Shown here piece by piece: positions 38,662 through 54,891 of a stretch of 64,000 bases of DNA; within the stretch, counting starts at the first letter, position 1, and every line of letters begins with the position of its first letter. The DNA comes from Cohnella cholangitidis. Its GTDB lineage: Bacteria > Bacillota > Bacilli > Paenibacillales > Paenibacillaceae. The position numbers and the translations under genes are program-made. The notes under the pieces are model-generated. The model was not told the origin of the DNA. It saw only the letters and a program-made list of their open reading frames with translations, and did no database searches. The stretch lies in contig NZ_CP041969.1 of assembly GCF_014107495.1 (NCBI RefSeq), positions 930,001-994,000 of the forward strand. Direction: 5' to 3'.

Positions 38662-39882
38662 CTAATATTTCTTTCTCTCGAGCTCGATTCGCGAAATATC
38701 TATGACTTCATTCACGCTATATACGATTTCCAATGGCGATTCTCTGCTTAAAAAGCCCAATAAACTCGATGTTAACCCATAGGCCCCTACATTGGGGATA
38801 ACGATATGATCGTTTATGTCAAGCTTCGGTATTTCGCCGGGTCGTCTAATAAAGTCTAATGGAGTGCACAGCGGACCGACTAACGATGCAATGTCATTCT
38901 CTTCCGATGAGGCTTCGTCGGATACGGCAAAATCCACGTCCAATTTCTGCATGCGTCCCAATCCCGACATCCCGCCAAGATGATTAATCCCTCCGTTAAG
39001 GATCACATAGCGACTGCCTTTGCTTTCTTTGATATCTTCGATTGAACAAATATACTGTCCGCAGCTCCCCGCAATAAACCTTCCGGATTCAAAAGCGACC
39101 TGCGTTTCGTTGTTTCTCCATTCGGGAATCTCGGAGTCCAAGAGGGCCGTTAGTTCTGATTTTAGGATAGAGAAATTCGGAGAATCGCCGAATTTGGCAT
39201 AGGGGTGGCCGAAACCTCCTCCAAGATTGAGGTAGCGGAGATTGATATTTAACTCTTCGGCCAACCTTTTGGCCATCTGGATGGAATAAGCAAAAGAATC
39301 GATAAGACTGCCGACGTCCGTCGAGTTTGTTCCGTTGAATACGTGGAAACCGATAACTTCCATGGATGGATGCGCAAGAAAATCCAAAGATCCGTTCATG
39401 ATTTTGTCTTCATCGATTCCGAACTGGGAAGAAACCCCCGTCATCGCTAAACTGGATCGCAAGTTTTTGGAGTTCGGATTCACTCGTAATACGACAGCTA
39501 GTTTCGTTGCGTGTTCTTCTGCGACGGAATTCAATTTATCGAACTCATTCCATGATTCGCAAGAAAATAATCTAACTCCCCGAATGACGGCGGTCTCGAT
39601 TTCGTTTCTCGTTTTGGCGGGACCGGTGTATTGTACCCGATCCGCTCTCGCGCCGGCTTGCAGCGCGACCGCGAGTTCGTTGACGGAAGACACCTCGCAT
39701 CTGCATCCCAAGCGAACGAGCTGGCCGACCAATACGGGGTGCGGATTTGCTTTAAGCGAATAATAAAGGATGGAATCGTCCGGTAAATAAGAACGCAACT
39801 TATGATAGGAGTCTGCCAGAGCGTCAATATTATAAACATACAAAGGACTGCCGTATTTTCTGACCAGATCGGAATAGTTCAT
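38662..39882 (-). CDS. BtrK-like PLP decarboxylase of the biosynthetic cluster
   Basis: A 406-residue fold-type III decarboxylase. The PLP lysine is in YYSLKANPHP (about Lys44), the phosphate-binding loop is LNLGGGFGHPY, and the dimer-interface Cys is in LVGPLCTP. The pattern HVFNGTNSTD, LNGGINHLGGMSGLGR and VGAYGLTSSLLGFL resembles BtrK of butirosin synthesis, which decarboxylates glutamate held on a carrier protein, more than LysA (HIGSQ). So a carrier-bound amino acid is the probable substrate; a free diamino acid remains possible. The start ATG at 39882 overlaps the ligase stop as ATGA and has AAGGA 8 bases before it. Confidence 0.8.
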   Translation of the reverse strand: MNYSDLVRKYGSPLYVYNIDALADSYHKLRSYLPDDSILYYSLKANPHPVLVGQLVRLGCRCEVSSVNELAVALQAGARADRVQYTGPAKTRNEIETAVIRGVRLFSCESWNEFDKLNSVAEEHATKLAVVLRVNPNSKNLRSSLAMTGVSSQFGIDEDKIMNGSLDFLAHPSMEVIGFHVFNGTNSTDVGSLIDSFAYSIQMAKRLAEELNINLRYLNLGGGFGHPYAKFGDSPNFSILKSELTALLDSEIPEWRNNETQVAFESGRFIAGSCGQYICSIEDIKESKGSRYVILNGGINHLGGMSGLGRMQKLDVDFAVSDEASSEENDIASLVGPLCTPLDFIRRPGEIPKLDINDHIVIPNVGAYGLTSSLLGFLSRESPLEIVYSVNEVIDISRIELERKKY

Positions 39883-41372
39883 GCCCACGTTCCTTCGCTC
39901 AGCGTTTTTTTAAGCGATAGTTTATCGATTTTTCCATGCGGGGTTAAAGGGAGATCCATCACCTTCACAATGTGATGGGGCATCTTATAACTTTCCAGCT
40001 TTAGCGCCAGCTCTTCTCGAATGTTATCAATCGTGTTTGGCGAAACGACCAGCAAATAGGAAGGCTCGTCCTCCCCAAGGGGGATGAAAACCGCTTGGGT
40101 AACTCCCTTTACTTCAAGCGCTGCCCCTTCAATCTCCAGAGTGCTCAATCGATATCCATTATGCTTGAAGATATCGTCCTTTCGCCCGTAGAAGTACAAA
40201 TACCCTTCTTCGTCCATGCTGCAATAATCACCCGTGAATAGAACGCGTTCATCGTTCAAGCGCCTATAAAATTGGTTCGTTACCGGTTCGTTGTTCCAGT
40301 AGCCTTGCATCACGTGAGGGCCTTTGACCACTAGCTCTCCGATTTCATTGGGAGGCAATTCGTTCCCCGTTTGGTCCACGATGCAGCATTGCGTACCGGG
40401 CAGCGGCTTGCCTATCGAATTGATCTTCCTATGCACATCGGCGCAAGGCAGTATAGAAACTCTTTTACATTCGGTAAGCCCGTACATGGCGTAGATATCG
40501 CATTGTCCAAAAATTCGAATTAAATCTAATATGTTGGAATAGGCAAAAGAGGAGCCCGTGCTTGTAATAAACCGCAGCCCTTCGATTTTATTCGTCTCCC
40601 GCTTAGCCAAAGCCACTAATGTATTGACCATGGAAGGAACGATTGGCAATCCGGTAATTTTCCATTTGAGAATATCCTTCATGATCGTAGACCCGACGTT
40701 TTTCTTGTTTCCTATGAACAGAGTCGCTCCCGCATGGCACGACAAGAAAATTTGATAAAGTCCGTAATCGAATGAGAACGGGATATACGTAGCTATAATG
40801 TCACTGGCTCTAATCTCGAGGCATTTCTGAATCGCATCGGTCACGAACGTAACATTGGAATGGGAGGATATAACCGCTTTAGGTTTCCCCGTACTGCCCG
40901 ATGTGTAGATCAAACACGCGATATCCTCTTCGTCGATTGAAACTTCGCGATCCGCCGCAAGCGGATCGCCGGACTTATCGGCGTGCAACGCGTCCAGATT
41001 AAGAATGTTTAAGCCTTCTTTATTCAACTCGAACTTGTCGATGAAACGGTCATTCGTAATGATGATTTTGGGACCGCAATCCTCGATGATATACTTCAAA
41101 TTTGCCGATACGATTTCAACGTTTAAATGGACGAATACTGCGCCGATCTTGGAAATCGCGAAAATCGAAAAGACGGATTCGACGCTGTCGGCAAGAAGGG
41201 CGACTACCCTGTCCCCTTTTCGAACGCCCCTAACGGCTAACTCATTCGCCAAACCGTCCACTTCATCCAACAGTTCTCTATAAGTATAGGATGAAAATTC
41301 CGAAAGCAGGGCCGTCTTATCCTCATCCTTGCAAGCTCCCGTTTGCAATAGACCGTAAACAAGCTTATTCAT
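39879..41372 (-). CDS. Adenylate-forming amino-acid/acyl ligase A of the cluster
   Basis: A 497-residue ANL-superfamily enzyme with the P-loop IACLIYTSGSTGKPKAV, YAMYGLTECKRVS (A5), FTGDYCSMDEEGYLYFYGRKDD (A7/A8, quoted as the D-to-GR element) and the catalytic lysine in LTPHGKIDKLSL. Full length with complete N- and C-domains, as in stand-alone A domains or DltA. It lies directly after the carrier protein at 41399-41644 and is coupled by ATGA to the BtrK-like gene. It probably loads an amino acid onto that carrier for decarboxylation. Confidence 0.85.
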   Translation of the reverse strand: MNKLVYGLLQTGACKDEDKTALLSEFSSYTYRELLDEVDGLANELAVRGVRKGDRVVALLADSVESVFSIFAISKIGAVFVHLNVEIVSANLKYIIEDCGPKIIITNDRFIDKFELNKEGLNILNLDALHADKSGDPLAADREVSIDEEDIACLIYTSGSTGKPKAVISSHSNVTFVTDAIQKCLEIRASDIIATYIPFSFDYGLYQIFLSCHAGATLFIGNKKNVGSTIMKDILKWKITGLPIVPSMVNTLVALAKRETNKIEGLRFITSTGSSFAYSNILDLIRIFGQCDIYAMYGLTECKRVSILPCADVHRKINSIGKPLPGTQCCIVDQTGNELPPNEIGELVVKGPHVMQGYWNNEPVTNQFYRRLNDERVLFTGDYCSMDEEGYLYFYGRKDDIFKHNGYRLSTLEIEGAALEVKGVTQAVFIPLGEDEPSYLLVVSPNTIDNIREELALKLESYKMPHHIVKVMDLPLTPHGKIDKLSLKKTLSEGTWA

Positions 41373-41398
41373 ATCGGATCCCCTCGTTCGATGAAAGA

Positions 41399-41644
41399 CT
41401 ATACCGCTTGTTTGTTCTTCATAATCTCCATGATCTTCTCGATGCTGTCGAAATTATCGAATATAAGTTCGTCGTCATCGATGATAATATCGAATTCTTC
41501 TTCCAGTCTAACGATGAGTTGGATGGCATTTAAGGAATCCAACCCGATATCGAACAAGTTTTGGTCCGCCGTCAGGTTAACGTTACCGTGAACCTTTAGC
41601 ATTTCGCGTACGATTTCGCTTATTTTCAGTTCAATAGAATCCAT
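41399..41644 (-). CDS. Carrier protein 1 of the cluster
   Basis: An 81-residue acyl/peptidyl carrier protein. The phosphopantetheine site is LFDIGLDSLNAIQLIV with Ser37. Its helix II is acidic (LEEEFDIIIDDDEL). GGGGAGG lies 7 bases before the second in-frame ATG at 41644, which is preferred to 41650. It overlaps the 3' end of the AsbF-like gene by 14 bases and precedes ligase A. No phosphopantetheinyl transferase gene is visible in the window. Confidence 0.9.
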   Translation of the reverse strand: MDSIELKISEIVREMLKVHGNVNLTADQNLFDIGLDSLNAIQLIVRLEEEFDIIIDDDELIFDNFDSIEKIMEIMKNKQAV

Positions 41645-42506
41645 TTGCATGCCTCCCCGTATTTAATCCCGTCAGCCAAGCGAGCTCCGTTCTCAGATGC
41701 GTTAAAGGTTGATCCCCGAACCACTCGATCGCAAGCGGTTCAGAGGTCTCGTCCCGCTCCAATCGCTCCATAATTTCCGAATAATCGATCGCCCCCTTGG
41801 ATAATCCCACCATGCCCGCTCTGCCGCCCATCGGAGAATAGACGTTTCTCGGCTCGAATACATCCAGCCTGTTCCGATCGGATATATTCTTAAGATGGTA
41901 ATTTACCGTCCAATCTCTTAGCTGTTCGTAGGCAACTATCGGATTGCACCCCGATTCCCATAGATGCAGGAAATCAAGATTGATGCGGACATGGTCGTGT
42001 CCCACGTTCGTCAGCAGACGTAACGTAGACTCCAATGTATCGGCTAAAGTATTTGGATGCGTTTCTATGACTACGTACATGCCGAATTCCGAAGCAAGCT
42101 CGGCCGTTTGCCTAAGATTTGCGATGCAGCGCTGCCATTCCGACGCGCTCGCCGAGGCGCTAGGCTTGTTTCCAGCGAAGATACGAATTTTGCGCGTGCG
42201 AAATAAGCGCGCCATCGAGAGGAGGAGACCGCCTTGCTCCAATACGTTGGATGATCGGCCGCTCTCGGTCATTAAGTCGATATAATCGCTGATCATGGAG
42301 ATGTTCAGACCCTTGGAGTGCATCCTATCGATGCTCCGGGTAACTTCGAGCGGGTCATAGCGCATTAAAGCCTTAGCATGAGCCCCCCATAGTTCAATAC
42401 CGGAAAAACCGATTTCATGCGCGAAGTGGACAAGTTTATCGAATGAAACAAGCTCGTGTCGGAAAGATATGGAGCATAAATAATAGTTCAAGCTGAACAC
42501 ACCCAT
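41631..42506 (-). CDS. asbF: AsbF-like 3-dehydroshikimate dehydratase (makes 3,4-dihydroxybenzoate)
   Basis: A 291-residue TIM-barrel protein of the xylose-isomerase-like superfamily. Blocks CSISFRHELVSFDKL, GFSGIELWGAHAKAL, MISDYIDLM, IETHPNTLADTLESTL, INLDFLHLWESGCNP, HLKNIS, VFEPRNVY and IEWFG closely follow what I recall of Bacillus AsbF, including metal ligands Glu (IETHPN), Asp (NLDFLH), His (HLKN) and Glu (IEWFG). AsbF dehydrates 3-dehydroshikimate to 3,4-dihydroxybenzoate for petrobactin. A generic sugar isomerase is the alternative. A catechol starter is the strongest clue to the product. Confidence 0.82.
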   Translation of the reverse strand: MGVFSLNYYLCSISFRHELVSFDKLVHFAHEIGFSGIELWGAHAKALMRYDPLEVTRSIDRMHSKGLNISMISDYIDLMTESGRSSNVLEQGGLLLSMARLFRTRKIRIFAGNKPSASASASEWQRCIANLRQTAELASEFGMYVVIETHPNTLADTLESTLRLLTNVGHDHVRINLDFLHLWESGCNPIVAYEQLRDWTVNYHLKNISDRNRLDVFEPRNVYSPMGGRAGMVGLSKGAIDYSEIMERLERDETSEPLAIEWFGDQPLTHLRTELAWLTGLNTGRHANGFY

Positions 42507-42540: not shown

Positions 42541-43878
42541 TTATTTTCGCACCTTCTTGAACCGATTCGAAAAAAGACGACCGCTCTCGACGTAGACTTT
42601 TACCGGAATTTGAAACGGTTCGAGACGGTCTCGGCAAAATTCCCTTATTCTCGTTTTGATGTCTTTGGCGCTCGCCGGAGTTCCTACATTGACAATGGCG
42701 GTCACGATATTGCCCATGATCGGATTCGGTTCGCCTTTGACGATAACATCGTTTAATTCCGGCATTTGGAGCAGAACGTCCTCTACCTCGATCGGATATA
42801 CCTTTCTTCCGCCGACGTTGATGATTTCCGTCCTGCGTCCGAGTATGCGAACGTACTCTCGATCGACGACGACCTGGTCCTCCGTATTGAACCACCCCTC
42901 ATCGTCGAACGGGTTAGGAGCATTCAAATATCCCAGCATCGCCCATCGGGATCGGATATAGAGCGTTTCGTCCCGGACTTCCGTTTCCACGCCCTCGCCT
43001 CCGATTTTGAGCCAAGATGAACCGGAGCTTTGGGATTTCGCGCGAAGGATTCCGAGTTCCGACAAACCGTAGGTTTGTTTGAATTGGACATCGGGAAATC
43101 TGCGGTGAAGCTGGCTAAGCGTATATTCCGGCATGACTTCCGTACCGTAAGTGATGATCTTGAGCGAAGACAAATCATATTGCCTATCCGATTCCGTCAT
43201 TAACAGCAAGTTCAGGAAGCTGGGGGAAGCAGGCAGTAACTCCACATGGTGTTTGTCGATTAAGGCGCAAATCTCCGCAGGCGAACGATTGGAAGGAGAG
43301 ATGATCGCTCCGCCGTTGGAAAGAGTATGGAATAGAGTGTTGATTCCTCCGATGTGATCGAATAACAAAAATGACAGGGTACGATAAGTCTCTCTCGGGG
43401 TTTTGTATCTTTCGACAAAAAGCTTGAAATCATGCAAGATCGCCTTGGGAGCTCCGGAAGTCCCGGACGTAAAAAGAATCAAGCCCGCATGTCCCGTTTC
43501 CTGAAAGTCCTTCAACAAACCCGTTCGCGGGCCTGCCGAATGGTTCTCAATATGGAAAAGACCGTCCGCGAAAGAAATAGACTTCTGAACTTGGGCGATT
43601 TCCATGAACTCCCGGCGTTTGTGGCGCGCGCCGGCGGACATCGGAACGACGATATTCCCATTCTCGATCAATGCCAACAAAGCTCCGCAAGCCGCGGACG
43701 AATAATCGCCCTCCAATAATATAACCTCTCCCGCTTGAAAGTTATGGTTTCTAACGATCGCGGCCCATTCCCGATAATGCTCCAACAGCATTGCGTAACC
43801 GACTGCCGCATGGTCCGCGATGATCGCATCGCGGTTATCGTAAGCGGACATTTTATCGAGCAGCCATTTGATCGCCAA
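42541..43878 (-). CDS. Adenylate-forming ligase B (probable AsbC-like aryl-carrier ligase)
   Basis: A 445-residue ANL enzyme with GLILFTSGTSGAPKAILHDF (P-loop), KQTYGLSELGIL (A5), WFNTEDQVV and VRILGRRTEIINVGG (A7/A8), and a basic C-terminus GRLFSNRFKKVRK. It lies between the carrier protein 2 gene and asbF-like, so activation of 3,4-dihydroxybenzoate for that carrier is inferred. Ligase C (418 aa) is closer to AsbC in length and is a rival candidate. Start is TTG at 43878, with AGGAGG (43888-43893) 9 bases before it; a further in-frame TTG at 43905 has no such site. Confidence 0.78.
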   Translation of the reverse strand: MAIKWLLDKMSAYDNRDAIIADHAAVGYAMLLEHYREWAAIVRNHNFQAGEVILLEGDYSSAACGALLALIENGNIVVPMSAGARHKRREFMEIAQVQKSISFADGLFHIENHSAGPRTGLLKDFQETGHAGLILFTSGTSGAPKAILHDFKLFVERYKTPRETYRTLSFLLFDHIGGINTLFHTLSNGGAIISPSNRSPAEICALIDKHHVELLPASPSFLNLLLMTESDRQYDLSSLKIITYGTEVMPEYTLSQLHRRFPDVQFKQTYGLSELGILRAKSQSSGSSWLKIGGEGVETEVRDETLYIRSRWAMLGYLNAPNPFDDEGWFNTEDQVVVDREYVRILGRRTEIINVGGRKVYPIEVEDVLLQMPELNDVIVKGEPNPIMGNIVTAIVNVGTPASAKDIKTRIREFCRDRLEPFQIPVKVYVESGRLFSNRFKKVRK

Positions 43879-43901
43879 TCTCTCCATCCTCCTTGAATCG
43901 A

Positions 43902-44153
43902 TCAAGCCGTCATCCCGGCAACGTAGGTTTTCAGAAGTTCGTACTTGCTGAGAATCGGCGTTGTAATGTCTTGGATATGAATACGGATGTCGAATTCCTC
44001 TTCCAAATCCGCGAATAAATTGACGATCAAGATGGAATCCAAAGCCAGATCGTTAATCAAATCGGTCTCGGGACGGATATCTTCCGAATTGATTTGCGTT
44101 CTTGCATTCCGCAAAAGCACTTCCTTCAATCGCGCATCTATCATAGGCTGCAC
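43902..44153 (-). CDS. Carrier protein 2 of the cluster (probable aryl carrier, AsbD-like)
   Basis: An 83-residue carrier protein with the phosphopantetheine Ser40 in LINDLALDSILIVNLF and the helix LEEEFDIRIHIQDI. It sits between the AsbE-like gene (stop 44155) and ligase B, mirroring the asbC-asbD-asbE neighbourhood of petrobactin clusters in reversed order. Inferred to hold the 3,4-dihydroxybenzoyl group. Confidence 0.88.
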   Translation of the reverse strand: MQPMIDARLKEVLLRNARTQINSEDIRPETDLINDLALDSILIVNLFADLEEEFDIRIHIQDITTPILSKYELLKTYVAGMTA

Positions 44154-44154: not shown

Positions 44155-45210
44155 TTAATCTCCCTCTTCCGCGACTAGGATTAACCACTCCATAAATCGA
44201 ATTTCGGCCTGTTTGAGTTTAGCGATGAGCGGTGAAAGGGCTTGATCGGATAGAGCAGTATCTTGCTCCTTCAAGGCTTTAAGCAGCTTAAAGCTGATCG
44301 TGTTCCACAAGCCGCTTATCGAATCGATCTGCTCTTTACCTTCGCGCAGCCGGTTCTCTCCTATACAACCGGTTTCAATGTAAGCTTGCCAGACGGCGGA
44401 ACGGATTCGCCTAATCGAAGCGATCGTAATGGCATTCCTTTTCATCCAAGCGACTCTGGCTTCAGGCGCCCAAACCGCCGACTGTACGAAGTCCGCTTCG
44501 AACGCTTCCAATGCTTTCGCGCCGCTCTTGCGGTTGCTGAACCATTGCTGCCATTCTCTCCTTCTCCGTTCCTCCGGAGTCGTTTCATTCGCGAGGGGAA
44601 CCGCCTCGCCGTCCGAATTGCCGTAATAGTACAGATTGCGTTGCGCGCTCTTGCGGATACATGACTTTATGTCCGGCGGCGAATATGGGATAGAGGGTTT
44701 CGTTAATACGAAATAATGCAATTCGTCGCGTCCCTTTTTTACGGCTCCCGCTTTCAGGACTTCGTCCGGATTCATTTGAACGATAGCGCTCACGGTTGGA
44801 TCGCCTACAACGTACTTCTCCCCCGATTGATCCCAACCGTAGATCAAGATGGAATGCTGAAATCCGCTCGATTCCATTCCTAGATTCTCGCGAGGAAAAT
44901 AGTCGAGCTTGGAAGCCTGGCAGAAGCAGATCGCGGCACTGCCCCCGCGAACGCTTTGATTCAGCGTCTTTGAATCGCCTTTGATGAATTTCATCTCGAT
45001 TCCGTAGAATAAATCGAGAGGAATTTGCCGCGCGTCCTTACTGGATAGCAACGTTCTGAATTGATAATTTAAATTCCAATAGTCCAACAGAACCTTTCTG
45101 TAATCGTCCCCATTGAAGTTGAGATAGGTAAGCACGCAGGAAGCAAAACACTCCATATAAGCCAAATTGATCATTCGATTGTCCTTCTCAACAATGTCCC
45201 GGCGCGCCAT
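44155..45210 (-). CDS. AsbE/BtrH-like acyltransferase 1
   Basis: A 351-residue protein with an N-terminal papain-like pattern: Cys21/Cys25 in MECFASCVLTYL, His119 in GFQHSILIYGW and Asp137 in VVGDPTV. This Cys-His-Asp order matches the BtrH N-terminal domain, which transfers a carrier-bound acyl group to an amine. The adjacency to an aryl carrier, ligase and AsbF-like enzyme suggests an AsbE role, joining 3,4-dihydroxybenzoate to an amine. The C-terminal half is helical and of unknown role. AAGGA precedes ATG 45210; ATG 45174 with AGAAGGA is a second option. Confidence 0.68.
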   Translation of the reverse strand: MARRDIVEKDNRMINLAYMECFASCVLTYLNFNGDDYRKVLLDYWNLNYQFRTLLSSKDARQIPLDLFYGIEMKFIKGDSKTLNQSVRGGSAAICFCQASKLDYFPRENLGMESSGFQHSILIYGWDQSGEKYVVGDPTVSAIVQMNPDEVLKAGAVKKGRDELHYFVLTKPSIPYSPPDIKSCIRKSAQRNLYYYGNSDGEAVPLANETTPEERRRREWQQWFSNRKSGAKALEAFEADFVQSAVWAPEARVAWMKRNAITIASIRRIRSAVWQAYIETGCIGENRLREGKEQIDSISGLWNTISFKLLKALKEQDTALSDQALSPLIAKLKQAEIRFMEWLILVAEEGD

Positions 45211-45245: not shown

Positions 45246-47027
45246 TTAACCTATCCGCATCGTTTGGTGCTGAAGCTCTTGAGCGTTAACGAGCTTCGAA
45301 TATTCTCCGCAACGGTTCATTAATTCGTGATGAGTACCGAAATCAACGACGACCCCGTTATCCATCACGTAAATCACGTCGGCGTAAATAATCGTTTCCA
45401 GCCTGTGCGTCGCGATAAGCGTCGTCTTGTTGTTCATCGTCCGCTCGATGATCGAGAGAACTTGCTCCTCCGTATTGCGGTCGAGCGCGGATGTCGGCTC
45501 ATCCAATATTAAAATTTCAGGTTTTCTGATAATCGCCCTGGCAATGGCCACTCGTTGCCTCTGTCCCCCGGAAAGTTGAAACCCTTGATTATCCAATTGG
45601 GTATGAATGCCGTCCGGCAAAGAATCCACATAGGCTTTCAGATCCACATCGCAAAGCACTTCGTAAACCTCTTGTTCCGTAACCTCCGGTTTACCGAGCG
45701 CGATATTGTCGAACAGCGTTCCCTTGAATAAAAAGGTTTCTTGGGACACGTAGCAGATCATTCGGGATAATTCCCTTCTGGACCATCTCTCCAAAGATAG
45801 GCCGGCTAGCGAGACATTTCCGGTTTCAATGGGCATAAACCCTTGCAGCGTCTTAAACAGCGTCGACTTTCCGGAACCGCTTGTTCCAACGAAAGCGGCG
45901 ATCCTGCCTCGGCCAATCTCGATATTAACCCCTTTAAGAATGCGGGTCCCTTCATATGCAACATTCAGATCCTTGCATACCACGACCGGAATCTTATCCT
46001 TAGGCAACCTCGGATACTCGTTCTCCGTTCCCTTCCCTCCGGCGTTCTCTTCTTGCATAACCGTCTCTATCGGACTTCGAAGGAAATCTTCAATCCGCGA
46101 CATGGCTACTTCGCTGCCCAACAAATCGCTTATGAGATAATTCATGTTCTGGACGGGACTGAGCACGGAGTGTAAATATTGCGCGGAGGCCACCATCATG
46201 CCAACGGTAAAAACCCCATTCAGAACTTGCCCGCTGCCGAATCCGTACAGAAAAACAATCGTAATCGCAATAACGAGAGAGGCCGTTTCTCCCGAAAGCC
46301 TGCGGAACAATCCCTCCTTGATGCTGACTTTCACAAGATCCTTATACATGGCTTCGTTCCGCTGTTCTTCCCACGATTCAAGGTGATAAGCTCTAATTTC
46401 TCGCGATCCTTGAATGCTCTCGACGAGATATGAACCGATTTCTTCATTATGCGTACGGAGAAGATTAACCGCGTCTTTGACAGGTTTGTTATAGAGGCGG
46501 GGAATGCTTAGAAGCAGCGGAATGCCGATAAGCGCGATGAGCCCTAAGCGCCAATCGATCGCTAATATTATGACGAGCGAAATAAACATTTGAAGCCATT
46601 GCCTGGTCAACTCCACGGCAATGACATTGATAAACACGGCGACTTTCGAAGTATCCATCCCCATTAGCGCTATGTATTTCCCCGGACCGTTCTTTTCTAT
46701 CTCGGTCAATGGGATTTTGCGAATGTGGCTAAGAACCTTGCTTCGTAGATCAAGCGTGGTTCTAGCCTCCAAATAACGGAATATGCTGAATCCCGATACG
46801 TTCAATAGGGCTGATATAAGCGTAAGGGCCAGGGATAATCCCAGCAGCGGAATGGCTGCGTTCGTCTCTCTATCGATTAACACCCGATCGATAAACATGG
46901 AAATCAAATAAGGCTGGAACAAACCGAATATTAAGCAAAGCAAGGTCAATAGAAACGCTAATCCCGTTAATCGCCAACGAGGATTGATATATTTCATTAA
47001 ACGAATATACATTTTCACGCTATTCAT
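45246..47027 (-). CDS. ABC exporter (fused membrane and ATPase domains)
   Basis: A 593-residue half-transporter with six membrane segments in residues 1-320 and a C-terminal ATPase: Walker A GTSGSGKSTLF, signature LSGGQRQRVAIARAII, Walker B ILILDEPTSALD and switch IATHRLE. MsbA/LmrA-type exporters of this layout act as homodimers. Located in the middle of the cluster, it probably exports the product, either for self-protection or siderophore release. GAGGGGATAAGTAA precedes the ATG. Confidence 0.92.
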   Translation of the reverse strand: MNSVKMYIRLMKYINPRWRLTGLAFLLTLLCLIFGLFQPYLISMFIDRVLIDRETNAAIPLLGLSLALTLISALLNVSGFSIFRYLEARTTLDLRSKVLSHIRKIPLTEIEKNGPGKYIALMGMDTSKVAVFINVIAVELTRQWLQMFISLVIILAIDWRLGLIALIGIPLLLSIPRLYNKPVKDAVNLLRTHNEEIGSYLVESIQGSREIRAYHLESWEEQRNEAMYKDLVKVSIKEGLFRRLSGETASLVIAITIVFLYGFGSGQVLNGVFTVGMMVASAQYLHSVLSPVQNMNYLISDLLGSEVAMSRIEDFLRSPIETVMQEENAGGKGTENEYPRLPKDKIPVVVCKDLNVAYEGTRILKGVNIEIGRGRIAAFVGTSGSGKSTLFKTLQGFMPIETGNVSLAGLSLERWSRRELSRMICYVSQETFLFKGTLFDNIALGKPEVTEQEVYEVLCDVDLKAYVDSLPDGIHTQLDNQGFQLSGGQRQRVAIARAIIRKPEILILDEPTSALDRNTEEQVLSIIERTMNNKTTLIATHRLETIIYADVIYVMDNGVVVDFGTHHELMNRCGEYSKLVNAQELQHQTMRIG

Positions 47028-47092: not shown

Positions 47093-48001
47093 TCAGTTCG
47101 CTCTTCGCGCAAGCTCAAGCTTGCGCAGATAATCCACCTTCGCCGAGAAAGCTTGCAGATCCACTTTCTTGTCTTGGACTTGATACCTTAATACGGCTAA
47201 AATGAGATTCTCCCAGCCCTTTAACAAATCCGCTATTATCGCGCTTCCCGCTGCGGCACAATAATCGCTCGTTGCTTCGAAATACTCGAACGCATGAACA
47301 TAACCGACAAACCGTTTGGAAATAACTCCTGCCAGTTTAATCGATTCGAATAGGGTTTTTGGAGCGTAACCCTCGTTGCTCTCTATGGAGCGACACACGA
47401 ATTTCTCGAATTCAACGAGCAAGCGGCTAGGACGAAGATGCATTTCCTGTTCGAATAAACGGCTTATTACGCTTGTTGCCGGGGAATGCAGAGCTTGAGC
47501 GTTTATTTCAAAGCCCATACCGAAGTTCATAAAATAAAAGGCGTTCCACATATCGATATTCGAAACGTATCCTTCCCAGGAGAAGAATGGGTCTTTCAGA
47601 TGCCACTGCGTATCTTTTCTATGCTTTACGATCACGTAATGAGGAGTATGATTGGAACGATACTGGTTCGAGTAGGGAAGATAATACAAGTCCGCCATAA
47701 CGACGGAAACGCTAGAAGCTCGACCGTCGGCCATTCTATTCTTGAGAACGGCATAATTCTCGTATTTATTTTTGTCCCTATCGAACCAATGCTTGACGGC
47801 ATTCCCGTAAAGCGTCTCAAACCTGTCTTGCCAATCGTAGGGATCCGCTGTATCGCTGTAGTAGTAAATCCCTTTCTCGTTCGCGTCGAAATAAGCGTTC
47901 CACGCTCCGACATACAAAGGCCTATAGTCGAATCGGGCGTCTTCTTTCAGCACGGAAGCATAGCAGTCGAGCAAGCAATGGATAGGACTATTCATTTTCA
48001 C
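47093..48001 (-). CDS. BtrH-like acyltransferase 2
   Basis: A 302-residue protein with the same N-terminal Cys-His-Asp order as the 44155-45210 product: Cys9/Cys13 in HCLLDCYASVL, His121 in NHTPHYVIVKH and Asp137 in WHLKDPFFSW. The rest is helical. It may move the acyl group from one of the other two carriers to an amine. No ortholog with a known reaction could be named. The start (GTG 48001, or ATG 47995) lacks a clear ribosome site, consistent with coupling to the upstream aminotransferase gene. Confidence 0.62.
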   Translation of the reverse strand: MKMNSPIHCLLDCYASVLKEDARFDYRPLYVGAWNAYFDANEKGIYYYSDTADPYDWQDRFETLYGNAVKHWFDRDKNKYENYAVLKNRMADGRASSVSVVMADLYYLPYSNQYRSNHTPHYVIVKHRKDTQWHLKDPFFSWEGYVSNIDMWNAFYFMNFGMGFEINAQALHSPATSVISRLFEQEMHLRPSRLLVEFEKFVCRSIESNEGYAPKTLFESIKLAGVISKRFVGYVHAFEYFEATSDYCAAAGSAIIADLLKGWENLILAVLRYQVQDKKVDLQAFSAKVDYLRKLELARRAN

Positions 48002-48044: not shown

Positions 48045-49159
48045 TTATCCGTTGCTTAAGAAAGATCTGATTTCATAAGCGACTTTGGCGACTTCGTCTT
48101 CCGTAAGCGAAATATGCATGGGAAGAGAGAGAATGCTTCGCGCGAACAGTTCCGAGTTCGGGAATGCCCCTTCTTGGTATTCAAGCGACGAGTAAGCAGG
48201 CGTTAGATGAACGGGCACCGGGTATTGCACCGCCGTTAGAATCCCTTTTTTCTGTAAATGTTTTTTGAGTTCGTCACGGCGGCTCGATTTCACCTTTATC
48301 ACGTACAAGTGGTAAACATGGCTTTCATCCTGCGGATCGTTCGGCAATTCAATAGAAGCTTCATCCGCTAAATACGCGCCGTACCAACTTGCTATTTCGC
48401 GCCTTCGGCGCGTCCATCTCTCCAAATATCGAAGTTTAATTTGCAGAGCGCTGGCTTGGATGGGATCAAGGCGCGAATTAAAACCGGGGATGTCATGCTG
48501 GTACCGGACTTCTCCTCCATGGTTTCTTAATTTACGCAGCCTGCCGAGCAACTCGCTCGAGGAGGAAATGACGGCTCCCCCATCGCCCAACGCTCCTAAA
48601 TTTTTGTCCGGATAGAAGCTGTAGCACCCCATGACGCCCCAACTGCCCGCCGGTTTGCCGAATAACTTGGCCCCCGCGGCCTGCGCGCAATCCTCGACGA
48701 TGAAAATGCCGTTTGCATGCGCCCAAGGAACGAGAGACGTCAAATCCACCATTCGTCCGTAAAGATGAACCGGGACAATAGCTTTTGTCCTCGGCGTAGC
48801 GCACGCCTTTACCTGTTCGATATCCATTAAAAAATCGGTCCGAACGCAATCTACCAAAACCGGTTTGCCCCCGTTTGATAGATTGCGTTAACGGTCGCGA
48901 TAAAAGTATTGGCAACGGTAATCACTTCGTCGCCAGGTCCGATTCCCAGCGCCTTCAAAGCCAGGAAGAGAGCATCCGTTCCGTTGCCGACTCCGACGGC
49001 GCCCGTAACGTTGGTATAGGAGGCGAATGCCGATTCGAAACCGGATATGACGGAACCCCCGACAAAAACGCCTTGTTTGGCGATTTGCAGCACCGATTGC
49101 ATCCATTCCTCGCGGATCTCTTCAAACTCTGACTGCGGGGCGGCAAATAAGATTCCCAT
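48045..49159 (-). CDS. DegT/DnrJ/EryC1-family sugar aminotransferase (one-base frameshift)
   Basis: The first frame runs 49159-48851 (MGILFAAPQSEFEEIREEW to YQTGANRFW). The second runs on to 48045 from VDCVRTDFLMDIEQVK. A missing base near 48866-48872 (GGGGGC/AAA) restores GAKPVLVDC and a normal enzyme of about 371 residues. The PLP lysine is in YSFYPDKNLGALGDGG; GNGTDALFLALKAL and VEDCAQAAGA are conserved. It should transfer an amino group to a keto sugar or keto cyclitol made by the adjacent dehydrogenase. AGGAGATGGAAA precedes the ATG, inside the end of the dehydrogenase gene. Confidence 0.82.
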
Positions 49160-50156
49160 TTTCCATCTCCTGACGGTTTAGCGAAGATAAACGAATCCAT
49201 TCCACGATTTTCATGGCCTCGATGGCCTCCTCTAGCGTGACTTCCGGCTTTGCTCCATATCGTACGGAGTCCGCGAACGAGGAATAAATACGAATGGCGC
49301 CTTTGTTGAGCGAAGGTTCCAGCATGATCGGTTGGGTCGGCTTTCCCTTCACGTGCACGCTTGCTTCCCGTTCCGAAACGATCTGAAGCGTAGCTTTGTC
49401 TCCTCCGACTACCCATAAGGGAGCGGGGACGTTCGAAGCAAAATTAATATCCATCGACATGACGACGTTACGTTCCGTCGTAAACGTGGCTCGCACGTAA
49501 TCGTCGACTTCGCCTTGCTCCCAGCTTAAGGTTTTCATGCTGGCATTGATATCCACGCATCGACCGAAATCCAACTGCAGCAGTTGGTCGATCAGATGGA
49601 TCCCCCAATCCAGCAATGCCCCGCCGCCGTAAGCCTTCTCATTGCGCCATTCTTGATGAAACGACTTCACCCCGAACGATGCTCCCGAGCCGAACATATG
49701 ATGGCGCCTCTCTACGAACAAAATCGATCCCAAGGCCTCCTCGTTAATCATTTGCTTAACCAGCAAAAAATCGCTGTCGAAGCGTCTGTTGTGAAAGACG
49801 GATACGATCTTGCCTTCTTGCTCGGCAATGGTTTGCAATCGAACGGCTTCCTCCGAAGATAAGGTTACCGGTTTCTCGATTAATACATGTTTTCCGCTGC
49901 GCAACGCTTGTTCGGCTAATCGAAAGTGGCTATTGGGCGGCGTTGCGATTAACACGGCTTCTGCCGGGGACGACAGCAAATCTTCAAGCCGCTCGAAGAT
50001 ATCAAATCCTCTTTTGGCCGCCAGCGCCAAACGTTGAGGAGTTACGTCGAATACTCCGGCAACTTCGATCCGGGGTAACTGTTTGAGCAAGGGGAGATGA
50101 ATGAGTTCGACAATTCTACCGAAACCGACGATCCCTAATGGTATGGTTTCGCTCAT
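49122..50156 (-). CDS. Gfo/Idh/MocA-family dehydrogenase of the cluster
   Basis: A 344-residue NAD(P)-dependent oxidoreductase. The nucleotide fold is LGIVGFGRIVELIHLPLL, the catalytic region has HVLIEKPVT (Lys) and GGGALLDWGIHLIDQLL (His). Relatives oxidise glucose-6-phosphate at C3 (NtdC, with aminotransferase NtdA making kanosamine phosphate) or myo-inositol. Pairing with the overlapping aminotransferase points to an amino sugar or aminocyclitol. It overlaps that gene by 38 bases and follows carrier protein 3 by 3 bases. Confidence 0.85.
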   Translation of the reverse strand: MSETIPLGIVGFGRIVELIHLPLLKQLPRIEVAGVFDVTPQRLALAAKRGFDIFERLEDLLSSPAEAVLIATPPNSHFRLAEQALRSGKHVLIEKPVTLSSEEAVRLQTIAEQEGKIVSVFHNRRFDSDFLLVKQMINEEALGSILFVERRHHMFGSGASFGVKSFHQEWRNEKAYGGGALLDWGIHLIDQLLQLDFGRCVDINASMKTLSWEQGEVDDYVRATFTTERNVVMSMDINFASNVPAPLWVVGGDKATLQIVSEREASVHVKGKPTQPIMLEPSLNKGAIRIYSSFADSVRYGAKPEVTLEEAIEAMKIVEWIRLSSLNRQEMENGNLICRPAVRV

Positions 50157-50159: not shown

Positions 50160-50420
50160 TTACACGGTTGCCTTCTGAAGAGATTCAATAAAATCGGCCA
50201 AAGAACCCGCCGTCGAAAAGACGTTAAGATCGATTTCCTCTTCTGGTATCGATACTTGAAACACCTCTTCTATGTACACGATTAATTGCAGCATCATAAT
50301 GGAATCGATATTCAAGTCATCATAAAGTTTGTCCGTTTCCCGAAGGATTTCCGGCGCTTCCAGCTCCAAGTTTTCTACGATTACGTTTCTTAACTCATTC
50401 ATGATCTCGTTTCTGTTCAT
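50160..50420 (-). CDS. Carrier protein 3 of the cluster
   Basis: An 86-residue carrier protein with Ser40 in LYDDLNIDSIMMLQLIVYIEE as the phosphopantetheine site (motif quoted as DSIMMLQ). It lies 3 bases after ligase C and is its probable partner. The alternative function, fatty-acid ACP, is unlikely given the context. Confidence 0.9.
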   Translation of the reverse strand: MNRNEIMNELRNVIVENLELEAPEILRETDKLYDDLNIDSIMMLQLIVYIEEVFQVSIPEEEIDLNVFSTAGSLADFIESLQKATV

Positions 50421-50423: not shown

Positions 50424-51680
50424 TTATTCATCTCCAGTCGCGGAATAGGTTTTGCGATTGATTTTACCGGACGGCATCCTCTGTATTTCATCCGTCATTT
50501 CGATGACGCTGGGCACCTTGTAGCTTGGCAAACGCGCGATGCACCACGATTTTACGTCTTGTTCGCTAATATGGGGATCGGCAACGACCACGGCCTTGAC
50601 TGCATCCCCCCATACCCGGTGCCGGGTCTTCAACACGATCGATTCTTGAACGCCGGGCAACCGTCCTATAACCGATTCGACTTCGTAAGGAATGACCTTT
50701 AACCCGGAAACGTTAATTAAATCGTCTAATCTGCCCAAAATATTCAAGCGGTTGGACACGGGGTCCATAAACCCCAGATCCCTAGTCGCGACTATATTCT
50801 TGCCATCCGTCACCATCACTTCTCCGCGCGAATCATCGTATGCTTGTTCGTCGCGTCCAATCGATAACCGCAAATGCCCTAAGGGAAAACCCACGTCCGT
50901 ACTAGAGAAAGGATGTTTGGCGACGGATATGCATCCCGCTTCGGTACAGCCGTATTGCTGCCATACTTCGTCCGTATTGAGCTTCGTATTCAGGAGAAGT
51001 TCATCGGACAGCGGAGAGCCCGAAAAAACAACTTTGTGGCCATGAAGTTGGCTATTGTCTAGTGCGTTTAATATGCCGTAATGAAAGGGGACCGTATATA
51101 CGATAGGCGCTTGGGCGGATTTGATCGCGTGCAGGGCGAATTTGGGATTTTTCTCCTGCACGACAACCGGGACGACTTTTCTCGCTAGCGCAGTCAATAC
51201 GCCCGCGATGAGCCCGTAGGAATGAGAAACCGGCACAAGTATGATCGGCGTTTCCTTCGGAGCGTCGCCGAATAATACATTGTAATGGTCTATTTCTATC
51301 CCGATTTGGGTCCATGTACGGGCAATTAGTTTGGGCTTGCCCGTCGTTCCCGATGTGTACTGAAGCATCGACGCGATAGATTCGGTTCGGGAACCGTTCA
51401 TAGATAGGATCGTATTCCAACAAGAATAAATAAGATAACGACAATCCGCATCCGCGGCCATTTCCCTCGCCGACTCTGCGGGCGTATTGCCGTGAATAAG
51501 AAGAACCGATCCTCCTCTATCTCTGAGATACATGACGATCGTCAGCAGATCAAACGCGTGATGTACGCAAACCGCGTATCTTTTCCCTTCCGGATTACGA
51601 TATTCCCCCATTCTTTTCATCTCTTCATACCTTGCCGACAAGTCGGAACTCTCGTACGTTTGGCTGTCGATTTTGAGCAT
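50424..51680 (-). CDS. Adenylate-forming ligase C of the cluster
   Basis: A 418-residue ANL enzyme, short at the N-terminus. SMLQYTSGTTGKPKLIART is the P-loop, WQQYGCTEAGC is A5, TRDLGFMD and LNILGRLDDLINVSG are A7/A8, and the C-terminal catalytic lysine is in MPSGKINRKTY. Its length is close to aryl-acid ligases of the AsbC type, so it may load an aryl or hydroxy acid on carrier protein 3. First gene of the minus-strand cluster; AAGGGG precedes the ATG, with a promoter about 57 bases upstream. Confidence 0.82.
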   Translation of the reverse strand: MLKIDSQTYESSDLSARYEEMKRMGEYRNPEGKRYAVCVHHAFDLLTIVMYLRDRGGSVLLIHGNTPAESAREMAADADCRYLIYSCWNTILSMNGSRTESIASMLQYTSGTTGKPKLIARTWTQIGIEIDHYNVLFGDAPKETPIILVPVSHSYGLIAGVLTALARKVVPVVVQEKNPKFALHAIKSAQAPIVYTVPFHYGILNALDNSQLHGHKVVFSGSPLSDELLLNTKLNTDEVWQQYGCTEAGCISVAKHPFSSTDVGFPLGHLRLSIGRDEQAYDDSRGEVMVTDGKNIVATRDLGFMDPVSNRLNILGRLDDLINVSGLKVIPYEVESVIGRLPGVQESIVLKTRHRVWGDAVKAVVVADPHISEQDVKSWCIARLPSYKVPSVIEMTDEIQRMPSGKINRKTYSATGDE

Positions 51681-51718: not shown

Positions 51719-51737
51719 TATGGTTTGAACAACCATA
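51719..51737. promoter_or_regulatory. Palindromic operator candidate in the divergent promoter region
   Basis: TATGGTT-TGAAC-AACCATA is a perfect 7-bp inverted repeat. It lies just downstream of the -10 of the biosynthetic operon and between that operon and the divergent AraC gene. Confidence 0.5.
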
Positions 51738-51766
51738 TTTTACCTAGTCTTCCTGAATGCGAACAA
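51737..51766 (-). promoter_or_regulatory. Promoter of the minus-strand biosynthetic operon
   Basis: On the minus strand TTGTTC (51766-51761) and TAAAAT (51742-51737) are spaced by 18 bases. Confidence 0.5.
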
Positions 51767-51842
51767 TATTATATTTTTCAGATGTTGGTACATTGTTAAG
51801 AATTTACCTGCTTGCGGTAAACTTTTCTTAAGGAGGGACGGC

Positions 51843-52634
51843 ATGCCGTTACCATTCGAGGAGGCGCTTCCTGCCCAGTTCGTAGCTTTTCACCACCCCG
51901 AATCACCGGAATGGGACTGTCCCTATTTCGTTCTCCTATGGCCCAAAATGGACAATCCCTCACAACGTTTAACGCCGATTACATTCGCCCCGCCTCATAC
52001 GCCTCTTCATACCAACGTACATCTGCATCAATATTATTGCGTTTTATTTCAAAGCTCTTTTCTCGATTCCGCGGACATCATCGCGAACGGCAAAGAACCC
52101 GTAATCATACCCGCTACTTTATATACAAGGCATCTGCAGGAGCTTATTTCTTATTTGTATCTCAATCCCGACCAGAACCAAGCTAGACTGTCATGTTTAA
52201 TATCAGCGTTAATCAACGAAATGATCGGGAACGTTACGGCGGTTCGAAAGCCGCTTCCGCCTATGGCGAACGACCGTAAAGCCGATGCCTTGAAAGAGGG
52301 AAAAGCCATTATCTACGCAACGAGATACATGAGAAAAAACATGAGCAATCCGCATTTGTCGTTGAATCATATCGCAAACGCCATCGGTTACCATCCGAAC
52401 TACTTCTGTTATGAGTTCAGCAAGGTTTTTTCCGTGTCGCCTATTCGGTTTTTGAACAATCTCAGACTGAAGCGCACCTTGCAGTTACTCGAGAATTCCG
52501 ATTTAAACGTGAAAACCATATGCGAGATCGTCGGGTTTCCTAATGCAGGAAGGCTAATCAGCATGGTGAGAGCCACTTCGGGAATGAGTCCGGTGTTATT
52601 CAGGCGTTCAAAGAGACTCCAACATATCAAATAA
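51843..52634 (+). CDS. AraC-family transcriptional regulator of the cluster
   Basis: A 263-residue regulator. The N-terminal half (about 1-150) has a cupin-like ligand-binding region with HTPLHTNVHLHQYYCVLF. The C-terminal two helix-turn-helix units are NPHLSLNHIANAIGYHPNYF and LNVKTICEIVGFPNAGRLI, followed by TSGMSPVLFRR. It is divergent from the biosynthetic operon and followed 12 bases later by the glycosyltransferase gene. The clean AAGGAGG 6 bases before the ATG supports the start. It probably controls both arms. Confidence 0.88.
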   Translation: MPLPFEEALPAQFVAFHHPESPEWDCPYFVLLWPKMDNPSQRLTPITFAPPHTPLHTNVHLHQYYCVLFQSSFLDSADIIANGKEPVIIPATLYTRHLQELISYLYLNPDQNQARLSCLISALINEMIGNVTAVRKPLPPMANDRKADALKEGKAIIYATRYMRKNMSNPHLSLNHIANAIGYHPNYFCYEFSKVFSVSPIRFLNNLRLKRTLQLLENSDLNVKTICEIVGFPNAGRLISMVRATSGMSPVLFRRSKRLQHIK

Positions 52635-52646
52635 AGGAGCATACGT

Positions 52647-53843
52647 ATGTCGACGATCTTATTTATCAACGGTCCGGCTAGCGGCCATGTTTATCCGACA
52701 TTGGGAATCGTGGAGGAGCTCGTTGCCGAGGGGGAACGGGTGATCTACGTTTCAAGCGAGGAGTTTCGCAAACCCTTGGAAAGACTGGGGGCTACCTATA
52801 TCGCATACGAGAACTTTCTTGATCGGGAAGATCCCTTCAATACGCAGAGTTATTTGTCATTGGTGATTAAAATCTTATCCTCCTATGAGATTATTCTTCC
52901 ATGCATTCTTGATTTAACCCGGCGATTTTCTTTCGACTACGTCATTCATGATTCCATGTACGGTTGCGGGGAGATCGTCTCCGAATGGTTAGACGTTCCT
53001 TCCGTATCTACCTGTACTTCCTTTATCCACGCGGAACGATTAATGATAGAGAACAACCGGAGCAAGGAGAAATTCAAGGAGAATATGGGCTTGGTTAAAC
53101 AGTTCGCCTCGTTATCGCAAAAAATTCGCGCCAAATATAACATTCGGCGCAAGTTGGACATGAATCGCGTATTCTTCAACGAAGGCGACATTAATCTTGT
53201 ATTTACTTCCCGCAGCTTTCAACCTCGCGGCGAAACGATCGGTGACGCATACAAATTTATCGGTCCGAGCCTCTCGGACCGATTTCAACCCGCCGAACTC
53301 TCCATCGATTGGATTCCTGGAAGCAAAGTCGTCTATATCTCTATGGGGACGGTTTTTAATAACGTCATGGATTTCTATCAAACGTGCTTCGAAGCCCTAG
53401 CTTCATTTAACGGACAGGTAATATTGTCGGTTGGCCACCGAATCGATATCCGCTCTATCCGGGGGATACCGGATAACTTTACCGTGCTTTCGTTTGTTCC
53501 GCAGCTGCAAATCCTACAGCGCGCTCATCTATTTATTACCCATGGAGGTATGAATAGCGTGAACGAAGCCCTCTACCACGAAGTACCGTTAATCGTTATT
53601 CCGATGGCGGCGGACCAACCCATCGTCGGAGACAGGGTAGCCGAGCTCGGCGCGGGAATCAAGCTGGATAGAGACTCCCTAACCCCGGAATTGTTGCTTC
53701 GAAGCGTAAATGAAGTGCTGCATGACGAACGATACCGAAATAACTGTTCCATAATCGGGGAAAGCCTGCGTATCTGCGGAGGCCAGAAAAAAGCCATCGA
53801 GGAAATTCGGCATTTCAAACAGACGCATAAGATTACTAGTTGA
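52647..53843 (+). CDS. MGT-type (macrolide-family) glycosyltransferase
   Basis: A 398-residue GT-B enzyme of family GT1. FINGPASGHVYPTLGIVEEL carries the N-terminal catalytic His region. SKVVYISMGTVFNN and the C-terminal donor motif LFITHGGMNSVNEALYHEVP, followed by PMAADQ, match YjiC/MGT enzymes that glycosylate small acceptors with UDP-sugars. It is co-directional with the AraC gene. It may attach a sugar to the cluster product or inactivate it for self-resistance. AAAGGAG precedes the ATG. Confidence 0.85.
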   Translation: MSTILFINGPASGHVYPTLGIVEELVAEGERVIYVSSEEFRKPLERLGATYIAYENFLDREDPFNTQSYLSLVIKILSSYEIILPCILDLTRRFSFDYVIHDSMYGCGEIVSEWLDVPSVSTCTSFIHAERLMIENNRSKEKFKENMGLVKQFASLSQKIRAKYNIRRKLDMNRVFFNEGDINLVFTSRSFQPRGETIGDAYKFIGPSLSDRFQPAELSIDWIPGSKVVYISMGTVFNNVMDFYQTCFEALASFNGQVILSVGHRIDIRSIRGIPDNFTVLSFVPQLQILQRAHLFITHGGMNSVNEALYHEVPLIVIPMAADQPIVGDRVAELGAGIKLDRDSLTPELLLRSVNEVLHDERYRNNCSIIGESLRICGGQKKAIEEIRHFKQTHKITS

Positions 53844-54891
53844 TCGCTCCTATGCGATCTACCGGACGCTTCGCCTCCGGCAAATGTTCGATTAAACTCG
53901 TTAAAAGATCTATTTCTTTACTAATAAACGTGTCCATCCCGTCTATTACTTTCAGCAAAATGCTTTTTTGTTTCGTAGCGTTATATTTTAAAAGCAAATT
54001 GCAAAGCATAACCGATAATTTGTGGACTTCCGCGTAGTTCATGGAAAAGTTCAACGACTTATTCAAAAACCGGTTATTCTCCATGTACTCCAATCTGAGC
54101 AGCATTGCCTTCTTGTGGGTAACGAGAAAATAAAAACCGCGAACGTCTGCATCCGTTTGTAGGAGCGCGATTCGTTGTAAATAGGCTTTAAGTTTCTCAT
54201 AGACTTCCATGCCGAAAGAGAAATCCGAATCCGCTTGCGAGCAGCCGGAAATAAAGTCTTTGTACGGATCGGTGGAGTTTAAGTAGTGCTTTAATTGCAC
54301 AATGACATGATCAAGATTGAAATCGTATACGGCATCGGGCTGGTATTTCATCAGCAGAATATACTTGCTTGTATATAAATTCGAACCGACGTCGCGCTTT
54401 TCCTTATAGGCTTGTTCAAACTCCGAATAACCGATTTTTTCAAAACTGTATTTCCGATCCTTGAAATTATCCGCTGCATAAAGCGTATTTTCGCTGTCGT
54501 TATAACCGTATATCAAGGAATCGTGGACGAAATTATGATTTTTCCCGGACAAAGGAATGTATAAATGATTTAAGTGTACTCGGACATAGTGACCCAGCCG
54601 GATAGAATCTTTAATGAACTCCAATATATTTCCATTCCACTTCTCGTTAAGATTAATGATATCGGTAGATATGGCTTGCGTTTGAATCCAAGGGCAGTCC
54701 CAATACAAATGAGGTCTATAAAAATTAACGTAAGTTTCCATGTTGCCTGAGTATTGATTGCTGATTTGGATTAAATTGCTCATAAACCAAGGAATCGCGT
54801 TTTCGTAATTGGACAGAATCGAGAACTCATGGGCGATAGCCGAATAGGCGTTCAAGACGGGAATTTTCATCGGTAAAATCATTTCTTTCAT
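53836..54891 (-). CDS. BtrH-like protein 3, lacking the expected catalytic Cys
   Basis: A 351-residue protein with the same block order as the other two BtrH-like proteins: His123 in NHNFVHDSLIYGY and Asp141 in LYAADNF. At the N-terminus, where they have LLDCYASVL or CFASCVLTY, this one has VLNAYSAIA, with Ala15 in the Cys position. It may be a non-catalytic partner or use a different mechanism. The gene is visibly AT-richer than its neighbours, hinting at a separate origin. It overlaps the glycosyltransferase stop by 8 bases, converging. ATG 54891 with GGGGTGG upstream is preferred to 54906. Confidence 0.6.
   Translation of the reverse strand: MKEMILPMKIPVLNAYSAIAHEFSILSNYENAIPWFMSNLIQISNQYSGNMETYVNFYRPHLYWDCPWIQTQAISTDIINLNEKWNGNILEFIKDSIRLGHYVRVHLNHLYIPLSGKNHNFVHDSLIYGYNDSENTLYAADNFKDRKYSFEKIGYSEFEQAYKEKRDVGSNLYTSKYILLMKYQPDAVYDFNLDHVIVQLKHYLNSTDPYKDFISGCSQADSDFSFGMEVYEKLKAYLQRIALLQTDADVRGFYFLVTHKKAMLLRLEYMENNRFLNKSLNFSMNYAEVHKLSVMLCNLLLKYNATKQKSILLKVIDGMDTFISKEIDLLTSLIEHLPEAKRPVDRIGAIN

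Follow-up and report, generated by a model that had tools for sequence, protein, structure and literature searches.

A putative NRPS-free carrier-protein assembly line joining petrobactin-like and butirosin-like genes in Cohnella cholangitidis

Introduction

The described systems closest to the operon analysed here, which lies in a 64,000-nucleotide stretch of the Cohnella cholangitidis genome (contig NZ_CP041969.1, positions 930,001 to 994,000; hereafter the window, in whose numbering positions are given), are the petrobactin pathway (asbABCDEF), with rhodopetrobactin/methylolanthanin, the butirosin side-chain pathway (BtrH/I/J/K), the beta-amino acid cassettes VinN/VinO/VinL and AfcQ/AfcP/AfcK, and the routes to closthioamide, celesticetin and azinomycin, whose papain-fold transferases (CtaG, CcbD and AziU2/U3) use carrier-bound donors. 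With petrobactin and its relatives the window shares homologues of AsbF, AsbC, AsbD and AsbE, but the petrobactin pathway also has the AsbA/AsbB synthetases (IucA/IucC family), found in none of the 28 loci of the present cluster family, and the cluster adds extra carriers, papain-fold enzymes, sugar genes and a glycosyltransferase. The likeness to butirosin lies in a BtrK-like decarboxylase, a free carrier and a papain-fold transferase (and, in 9 of the 28 loci, an ATP-grasp protein, the ligase type of BtrJ), whereas in the window a VinN-type ligase stands in the place of BtrJ and a catechol module is added. This ligase has the residue pattern of the beta-amino acid cassettes and is accompanied, as in them, by a pyridoxal phosphate (PLP)-dependent decarboxylase beside a free carrier, but the set sits in an asbCDEF cluster and not beside a polyketide synthase (PKS) or a beta-amino-acid fatty acyl-AMP ligase. 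As for the third group, sequence identity with CtaG, CcbD and AziU2/U3 is 10-14%, and no thioamide-forming (adenine nucleotide alpha-hydrolase) or lincosamide family appeared among the hits of the 17 scanned open reading frames (ORFs).

Judged from its sequence, the cluster works like the thiotemplated amide pathways that are independent of nonribosomal peptide synthetases (NRPSs), i.e., those of butirosin, closthioamide and the petrobactin side chain, and its gene content places it in none of these pathways. No cluster of such make-up is described in the top listings of open-licence PubMed Central, in agreement with the initial annotation of the region, which could not match the combination to a described pathway. 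We propose, at a probability of roughly 0.6, that the operon encodes an NRPS-free carrier-protein assembly line, in which 3,4-dihydroxybenzoate and two other acids are held on three carriers and joined by papain-fold enzymes, probably in amide linkage to an amino sugar, with glycosylation and export likely to follow. The inferred product would be a glycosylated 3,4-dihydroxybenzoyl amide that also contains a unit of the beta-alanine type and another acid.

Organisation of the operon

The operon comprises 13 tightly spaced minus-strand genes running from 51680 to 38662 (intergenic gaps of -38 to +65 bases), in a host genome of 6,408,853 bases. In order of transcription, they encode an AsbC-like ligase, an AsbD-like carrier, a Gfo/Idh dehydrogenase, an aminotransferase (split), an AsbE-like protein, an ATP-binding cassette (ABC) exporter, papain-fold protein 2, carrier 2, ligase 2, an AsbF-like enzyme, carrier 3, a VinN-type ligase and a BtrK-like decarboxylase. 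Beyond the AsbC end, an AraC regulator, an MGT-family glycosyltransferase and papain-fold protein 3 complete the region (38662-54906). Profile and PDB matches bear out the gene inventory initially proposed (AsbF-like enzyme, three ligase/carrier pairs, BtrK-like decarboxylase, exporter, glycosyltransferase and AraC regulator), and each of the three carriers has the DS attachment serine.

No NRPS or PKS megasynthase is present, as already stated by the initial annotation, because the longest ORF of the region, that of the exporter, has only 593 codons; its claim that an AsbA/AsbB synthetase is missing also holds, a tblastn search of the window having matched no IucA/IucC protein. A reading of the region as two unrelated operons was rejected because the order of the AraC gene, the glycosyltransferase gene and the operon is preserved in three relatives (loci L014, L058 and L059). 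The mixture of petrobactin-like and butirosin-like chemistry is found in one coherent operon, uniting asbCDEF with BtrK-like and papain-fold genes, with related loci in 26 genomes. A phage or plasmid origin was likewise rejected: papain-fold protein 2 was unmatched in 50,697 phage and 72,556 plasmid records, and the AsbF-like protein had matches in 90 plasmid records, all below 60% identity, of which 9 of the 10 best listed overlie a gene annotated as DUF6005.

The catechol module and the papain-fold proteins

The AsbF-like 3-dehydroshikimate dehydratase (41631..42506) matches AsbF (PDB 3dx5) with an E value of 6.8e-77, the next match being at 6.1e-06, and its residues E148, D178, H204 and E261, presumably the metal ligands, are invariant in an alignment of 28 rows that includes 5 of the petrobactin type. 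The first gene of the operon encodes the AsbC-like adenylating ligase (50424..51680; NCBIfam PRK08308, 443 bits, cut-off 513), which is 37-41% identical to the ligases of six of eight petrobactin-type control loci and is predicted to load 3,4-dihydroxybenzoate, followed by the AsbD-like acyl carrier protein (50160..50420; PRK07639 'petrobactin biosynthesis protein AsbD', 89.7 bits, cut-off 100). The AsbE-like papain-fold acyl transferase (47093..48001) is a DUF6005 protein (PF19468, 168 bits, cut-off 25), in whose alignment of 23 rows Cys9 and Asp137 are present in 22 (the remaining row is gapped) and His121 in 22, the exceptions coming from L060, where the ORF is broken into pieces. PF19468 has served as the asbE model (PMC11317620), and DUF6005 is classed as papain-like and tied to siderophore synthesis through genome context (PMC10318531). 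By analogy with the petrobactin homologues, 3,4-dihydroxybenzoate would come from the AsbF-like enzyme and be attached to the AsbD-like carrier by the AsbC-like ligase, after which the AsbE-like enzyme would move the 3,4-dihydroxybenzoyl group to an amine.

The other two papain-fold proteins (44155..45210 and 53836..54906, both on the minus strand) have no Pfam hit, and their fold was assigned from AlphaFold2 models through Foldseek/VIA, the VIA rows behind these calls leaving other families possible. Papain-fold protein 2, a predicted acyl transferase/amide synthase, has a model with a predicted local distance difference test (pLDDT) score of 85 and AziU2/U3, CtaG and CcbD as best matches, and its Cys21-His119-Asp137 triad is invariant in 28 of 28 aligned sequences; at the sequence level, nothing in the PDB matched better than E 0.24. 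A Cys-His-Asp triad in a papain-like fold is thereby found in this protein (from its model) and in the AsbE-like one (from PF19468; PMC10318531). Papain-fold protein 3 (pLDDT 68; CcbD/CtaG matches) has Ala20 at the aligned Cys position and no Cys within residues 1-60, and in its family a Cys occupies the catalytic position in 7 of 15 aligned members. The initial claim of three BtrH/AsbE-like papain-fold proteins is supported as to the fold of all three, but the third lacks the catalytic Cys; it might act by His-assisted aminolysis or as the partner of another transferase.

The third slot and its interchangeable loaders

The third slot is made up of acyl carrier protein 3 (41399..41650; PF00550, 52 bits), the VinN-type ligase (39879..41372) and, as the last gene of the operon, the BtrK-like PLP decarboxylase, predicted to act on a carrier-bound amino acid (38662..39888). 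The best PDB match of the ligase is 3wvn (E 1.5e-90), a record titled only 'Non-ribosomal peptide synthetase' that we take to be VinN, which fits because an offset of 16 places Asp230, Ser299, Lys330 and Arg331 on the D, S, K and R of the chain. These residues align with Asp202, Thr272, Lys303 and Arg304 of the window ligase, Asp202 and Arg304 being identical and Thr272 replacing Ser299. The same Asp/Thr/Lys/Arg pattern is carried by the ligases of L075 and L076 (40-41% identical to that of the window), the only ones in the fetched loci reaching at least 30% identity to it, while the Asp and the Lys are missing at these positions in the second-slot ligases of L061 and L076, the two checked. 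The roles of Asp230, Ser299 and Arg331 are taken from PMC7756342, VinN and VinO are described in PMC11284099 and, according to PMC12186527, a VinN-type relative loads L-Asp, which a PLP enzyme then decarboxylates on the carrier. The decarboxylase of the window, with K46 within YSLKANP, has BtrK (PDB 2j66, E 3e-56) as the first of 49 PDB matches, and 2j66 and 7ru7 rank above the diaminopimelate decarboxylases. On these grounds, the ligase would load L-aspartate (or 3-methylaspartate) via its side-chain carboxylate onto carrier 3, where decarboxylation by the BtrK-like enzyme would give a beta-alanyl (or methyl-beta-alanyl) thioester. The acyl group predicted for the third slot, beta-alanine derived from aspartate, refines the "at least one other acyl group" of the initial annotation.

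Related operons carry other loaders in this slot. Across the 28 loci, tblastn finds an aminoacyl-tRNA-synthetase-like carrier ligase in 9, an ATP-grasp protein with a BtrK-like decarboxylase in 9 and a VinN-type ligase with a BtrK-like decarboxylase in 3 (the window, L075 and L076), and in none do two of the three types occur together; in the window, a tblastn search with the ATP-grasp protein of L065 found no BtrJ-type ligase. The synthetase-like loader is represented by the L014 protein (PF00587, 37.8 bits; NCBIfam PRK07080, 132 bits, cut-off 357; PDB 3mey, amino acid--[acyl-carrier-protein] ligase, E 5.6e-24), and the L065 protein belongs to the ATP-grasp_3 family. The loader, or its decarboxylase or carrier, directly follows asbF in 15 of the 28 loci (synthetase-like in L014, L058, L059 and L062; ATP-grasp in L063, L065-L069, L072 and L077; VinN-type in the window, L075 and L076) and lies elsewhere in the locus otherwise. 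As far as sequence comparison goes, the third-slot loader is interchangeable among three unrelated ligase types across related operons. In L063, a carbamoyltransferase gene (12923-15853) adjoins that of the BtrK-like decarboxylase, possibly an extra tailoring step.

Second slot, sugar genes, export and regulation

In the second slot, adenylating ligase 2 (42541..43905; PF00501, 98 bits), whose best match is a long-chain fatty-acid ligase subfamily, below cut-off, would load a further acid on acyl carrier protein 2 (43902..44153; PF00550, 31 bits), and papain-fold enzyme 2 would transfer that acyl group. This slot also varies, with ligase 2 in 9 of the 28 loci, a PaaK-like protein in 16, neither in 3 and both in none.

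The Gfo/Idh/MocA dehydrogenase (49122..50156; PF01408/PF22725), for which oxidation of a hydroxyl on a sugar or cyclitol is predicted, and the DegT/DnrJ aminotransferase would make an amino sugar (or aminocyclitol). Both enzymes had been proposed initially and were found, but the aminotransferase is divided between two ORFs, an N-terminal piece (48851..49159; PF01041 profile positions 2-87) and a C-terminal one (48045..48857; positions 90-359), the frame breaking near 48853; its relatives in L014 (379 residues) and L015 (368 residues) are intact as single ORFs. Three FecCD genes of the host genome (G000:C1 2004612-2005543, 3197248-3198181 and 3815073-3816001) are likewise split into adjacent frames, which makes an indel error in the assembly the likelier cause, so that the split is probably a sequencing or assembly error. 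The PDB relatives of the aminotransferase include QdtB and WbpE, which presumably act on 3-keto-sugars, and its PDB neighbours do not separate a 3-amino-sugar from an aminocyclitol.

The remaining steps would be the attachment of a sugar by the MGT-family glycosyltransferase (52647..53843, plus strand; TIGR01426, 357 bits, cut-off 260) and export by the MsbA-type ABC protein (45246..47027; PF00664 and PF00005). The AraC-family regulator (51843..52634; PF12833, 57 bits) is also on the plus strand. Elsewhere in the window, a HepT-like ribonuclease gene (55043-55465) adjoins the cluster and a T-box leader (RF00230, 124 bits) lies at 22661-22889 on the minus strand.

Distribution of the cluster family

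An alignment search with papain-fold protein 2 gave matches in 34 of 392 genomes of the taxonomic order (26 with E < 1e-60) and in 6 of 37 genomes of the genus. A draw of 398 genomes from the phylum yielded, apart from the host genome itself, a single match that was short and weak, on which ground a wide spread across the phylum was rejected; the family sits within the order. The gene-neighbourhood comparison suggested by the initial annotation covers 28 loci in 26 genomes (the window and 27 fetched loci; the strong matches G139, G158, G192 and G237, all of genus g18, were left out of the fetched set), scored by tblastn with bit thresholds of our own, so genes recorded as missing may reflect the 20-kb cuts, contig ends or thresholds. 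Apart from papain-fold protein 2, the query family (28 of 28), asbC is present in 23, asbD in 25, asbE in 23, asbF in 25, the ABC exporter in 24 and a glycosyltransferase in 27 (MGT type in 7, GT4 type in 20), the Gfo/Idh and aminotransferase genes in the same 17; papain-fold protein 3 is found in 10 by tblastn, and profile searches detect it in 15 loci besides the window, one of them partial. IucA/IucC, FecCD and PBP2 genes are detected in none of the 28, the window included, whereas all eight petrobactin-type control loci, from the same order, have IucA/IucC homologues. The DUF6005 cut-off is passed by 52 of the 392 genomes, and 29 of the 30 matches of at least 365 bits have a listed IucA/IucC match no more than about 3.3 kb away (its place in G399 is unlisted).

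Four genomes (G155, G190, G295 and G410) hold both a cluster and a petrobactin-type locus. In trees built from the loci yielding a row of suitable length, 21 of the 23 cluster rows stand on one supported branch for AsbF (27 rows, 4 petrobactin-type) and 18 of the 20 for AsbC (26 rows, 6 petrobactin-type), and a branch (93/85 and 62/51, respectively) still separates the petrobactin-type rows from all others.

The host genome carries a second cluster of the same family (L017, C1:5311001-5331000), with GT4, PaaK-like and methyltransferase genes and a protein in which BtrH_N is joined to a DUF7402 domain. Genes for glycoside hydrolases of families GH2, GH31 and GH130 flank this cluster and those of L015 and L016. 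Two petrobactin-type loci with IucA/IucC also have a GT4-like glycosyltransferase gene, between asbE and asbF in L080 and as part of an 895-codon ORF in L079; they may make glycosylated relatives of petrobactin.

Discussion

The initial annotation thought a new catechol siderophore or antibiotic likely. A siderophore, i.e., an iron-scavenging 3,4-dihydroxybenzoyl conjugate under iron control through AraC or another non-Fur regulator, would agree with the asbCDEF homologues, the exporter in the operon and the DUF6005 context described in PMC10318531. The promoter evidence points the other way. When scored against a 14-position Fur-box consensus (TGATAATNATTATCA), the region upstream of the AsbC-like gene reaches at best 9/14 (shuffle mean 8.7, P 0.585), no site with three mismatches or fewer lies within 38662-54906, and the whole window holds one weak Fur-box-like site, at 58334, fewer than chance gives. 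Of 20 regions upstream of clusters, 19 score 10 or less, that of the window among them, whereas 12-13 is reached by 6 of the 9 regions that precede iron-uptake or IucA genes of the host genome (in two pairs the intergenic region is the same). This makes a classical siderophore less likely than initially thought, no Fur box having been found upstream of the operon while uptake genes of the genome have them; besides, no uptake gene (FecCD or PF01497-type) is detected in the 28 loci, and the nearest PF01497 gene is about 87 kb from the operon. This test is not absolute, since only three of the eight petrobactin-type control loci show a strong box, and the own IucA gene of the genome scores 9/14. 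Altogether, the scores argue against Fur control of the operon but are compatible with Fur control elsewhere and with iron binding; the siderophore claim is weakened, and we regard it as unlikely, though of some weight.

That the locus is instead a petrobactin cluster degraded by the loss of asbA and asbB and mixed with neighbouring genes might be read from the common asbCDEF set and the split aminotransferase frame. As a general account this was rejected, given the conservation of related clusters across 26 genomes, mostly on separate branches, four of these genomes holding both kinds; the active-site residues are also kept in the AsbF-like, AsbE-like and papain-fold 2 proteins, and we consider it very improbable. 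Decoration of a cell-envelope glycolipid or polysaccharide, with ligase 2 loading a fatty acid and the exporter moving a catechol-bearing glycolipid, draws on the MsbA-type exporter, the glycosyltransferase and the best match of ligase 2, and also on the resemblance, below cut-off, of the VinN- and BtrK-type proteins to the exosortase-associated TIGR03098/TIGR03099. Polymerase, flippase and exosortase families are nevertheless missing among the hits of the 17 scanned ORFs and the carrier-to-amine logic would better suit a small molecule, which makes this account improbable.

Several observations weigh against the assembly line that we favour. The AsbC-like and AsbD-like proteins score under their NCBIfam cut-offs, the profile matches assign no substrate to ligase 2, and papain-fold protein 3 lacks its nucleophile and has a weak model. 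If the split of the aminotransferase is real, the amino-sugar step may be broken. The L076 upstream region has a 12/14 Fur-box match, and L075 and L076 adjoin petrobactin-type rows in both the AsbF and AsbC trees, points that favour the siderophore and the degraded locus, respectively. The biosynthetic scheme is also non-uniform, because 11 of the 28 loci have neither a detected dehydrogenase nor an aminotransferase (the two co-occur in 17 of the 17 loci having either) and 7 have no recognised third-slot loader (L016, L017, L018, L060, L061, L064 and L073). An amino sugar (or aminocyclitol) acceptor, as initially suggested, is plausible here but not general across the family.

Going beyond this locus, we tentatively suggest, as a view that we hold to be possible rather than probable, that these clusters form a new class in the order of Paenibacillus and Cohnella. 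In it, asbCDEF would have lost its tie to citrate condensation and been combined with an open slot taking three unrelated amino-acid loaders; papain-fold enzymes dedicated to the task, including a cysteine-less one, would build glycosylated catechol amides, which would be antibiotics or signals, and not iron-regulated siderophores. If the assembly line is right, asbCDEF without asbAB, together with papain-fold transferases and a glycosyltransferase, would provide a gene signature for the product family, and detection rules based on NRPS/PKS or IucA may be expected to overlook such products or to mislabel them as petrobactin. The small stand-alone enzymes would also be suited to in vitro reconstitution, and the family would represent a natural experiment in module exchange, in which ligases of three unrelated folds serve the same slot of related operons.

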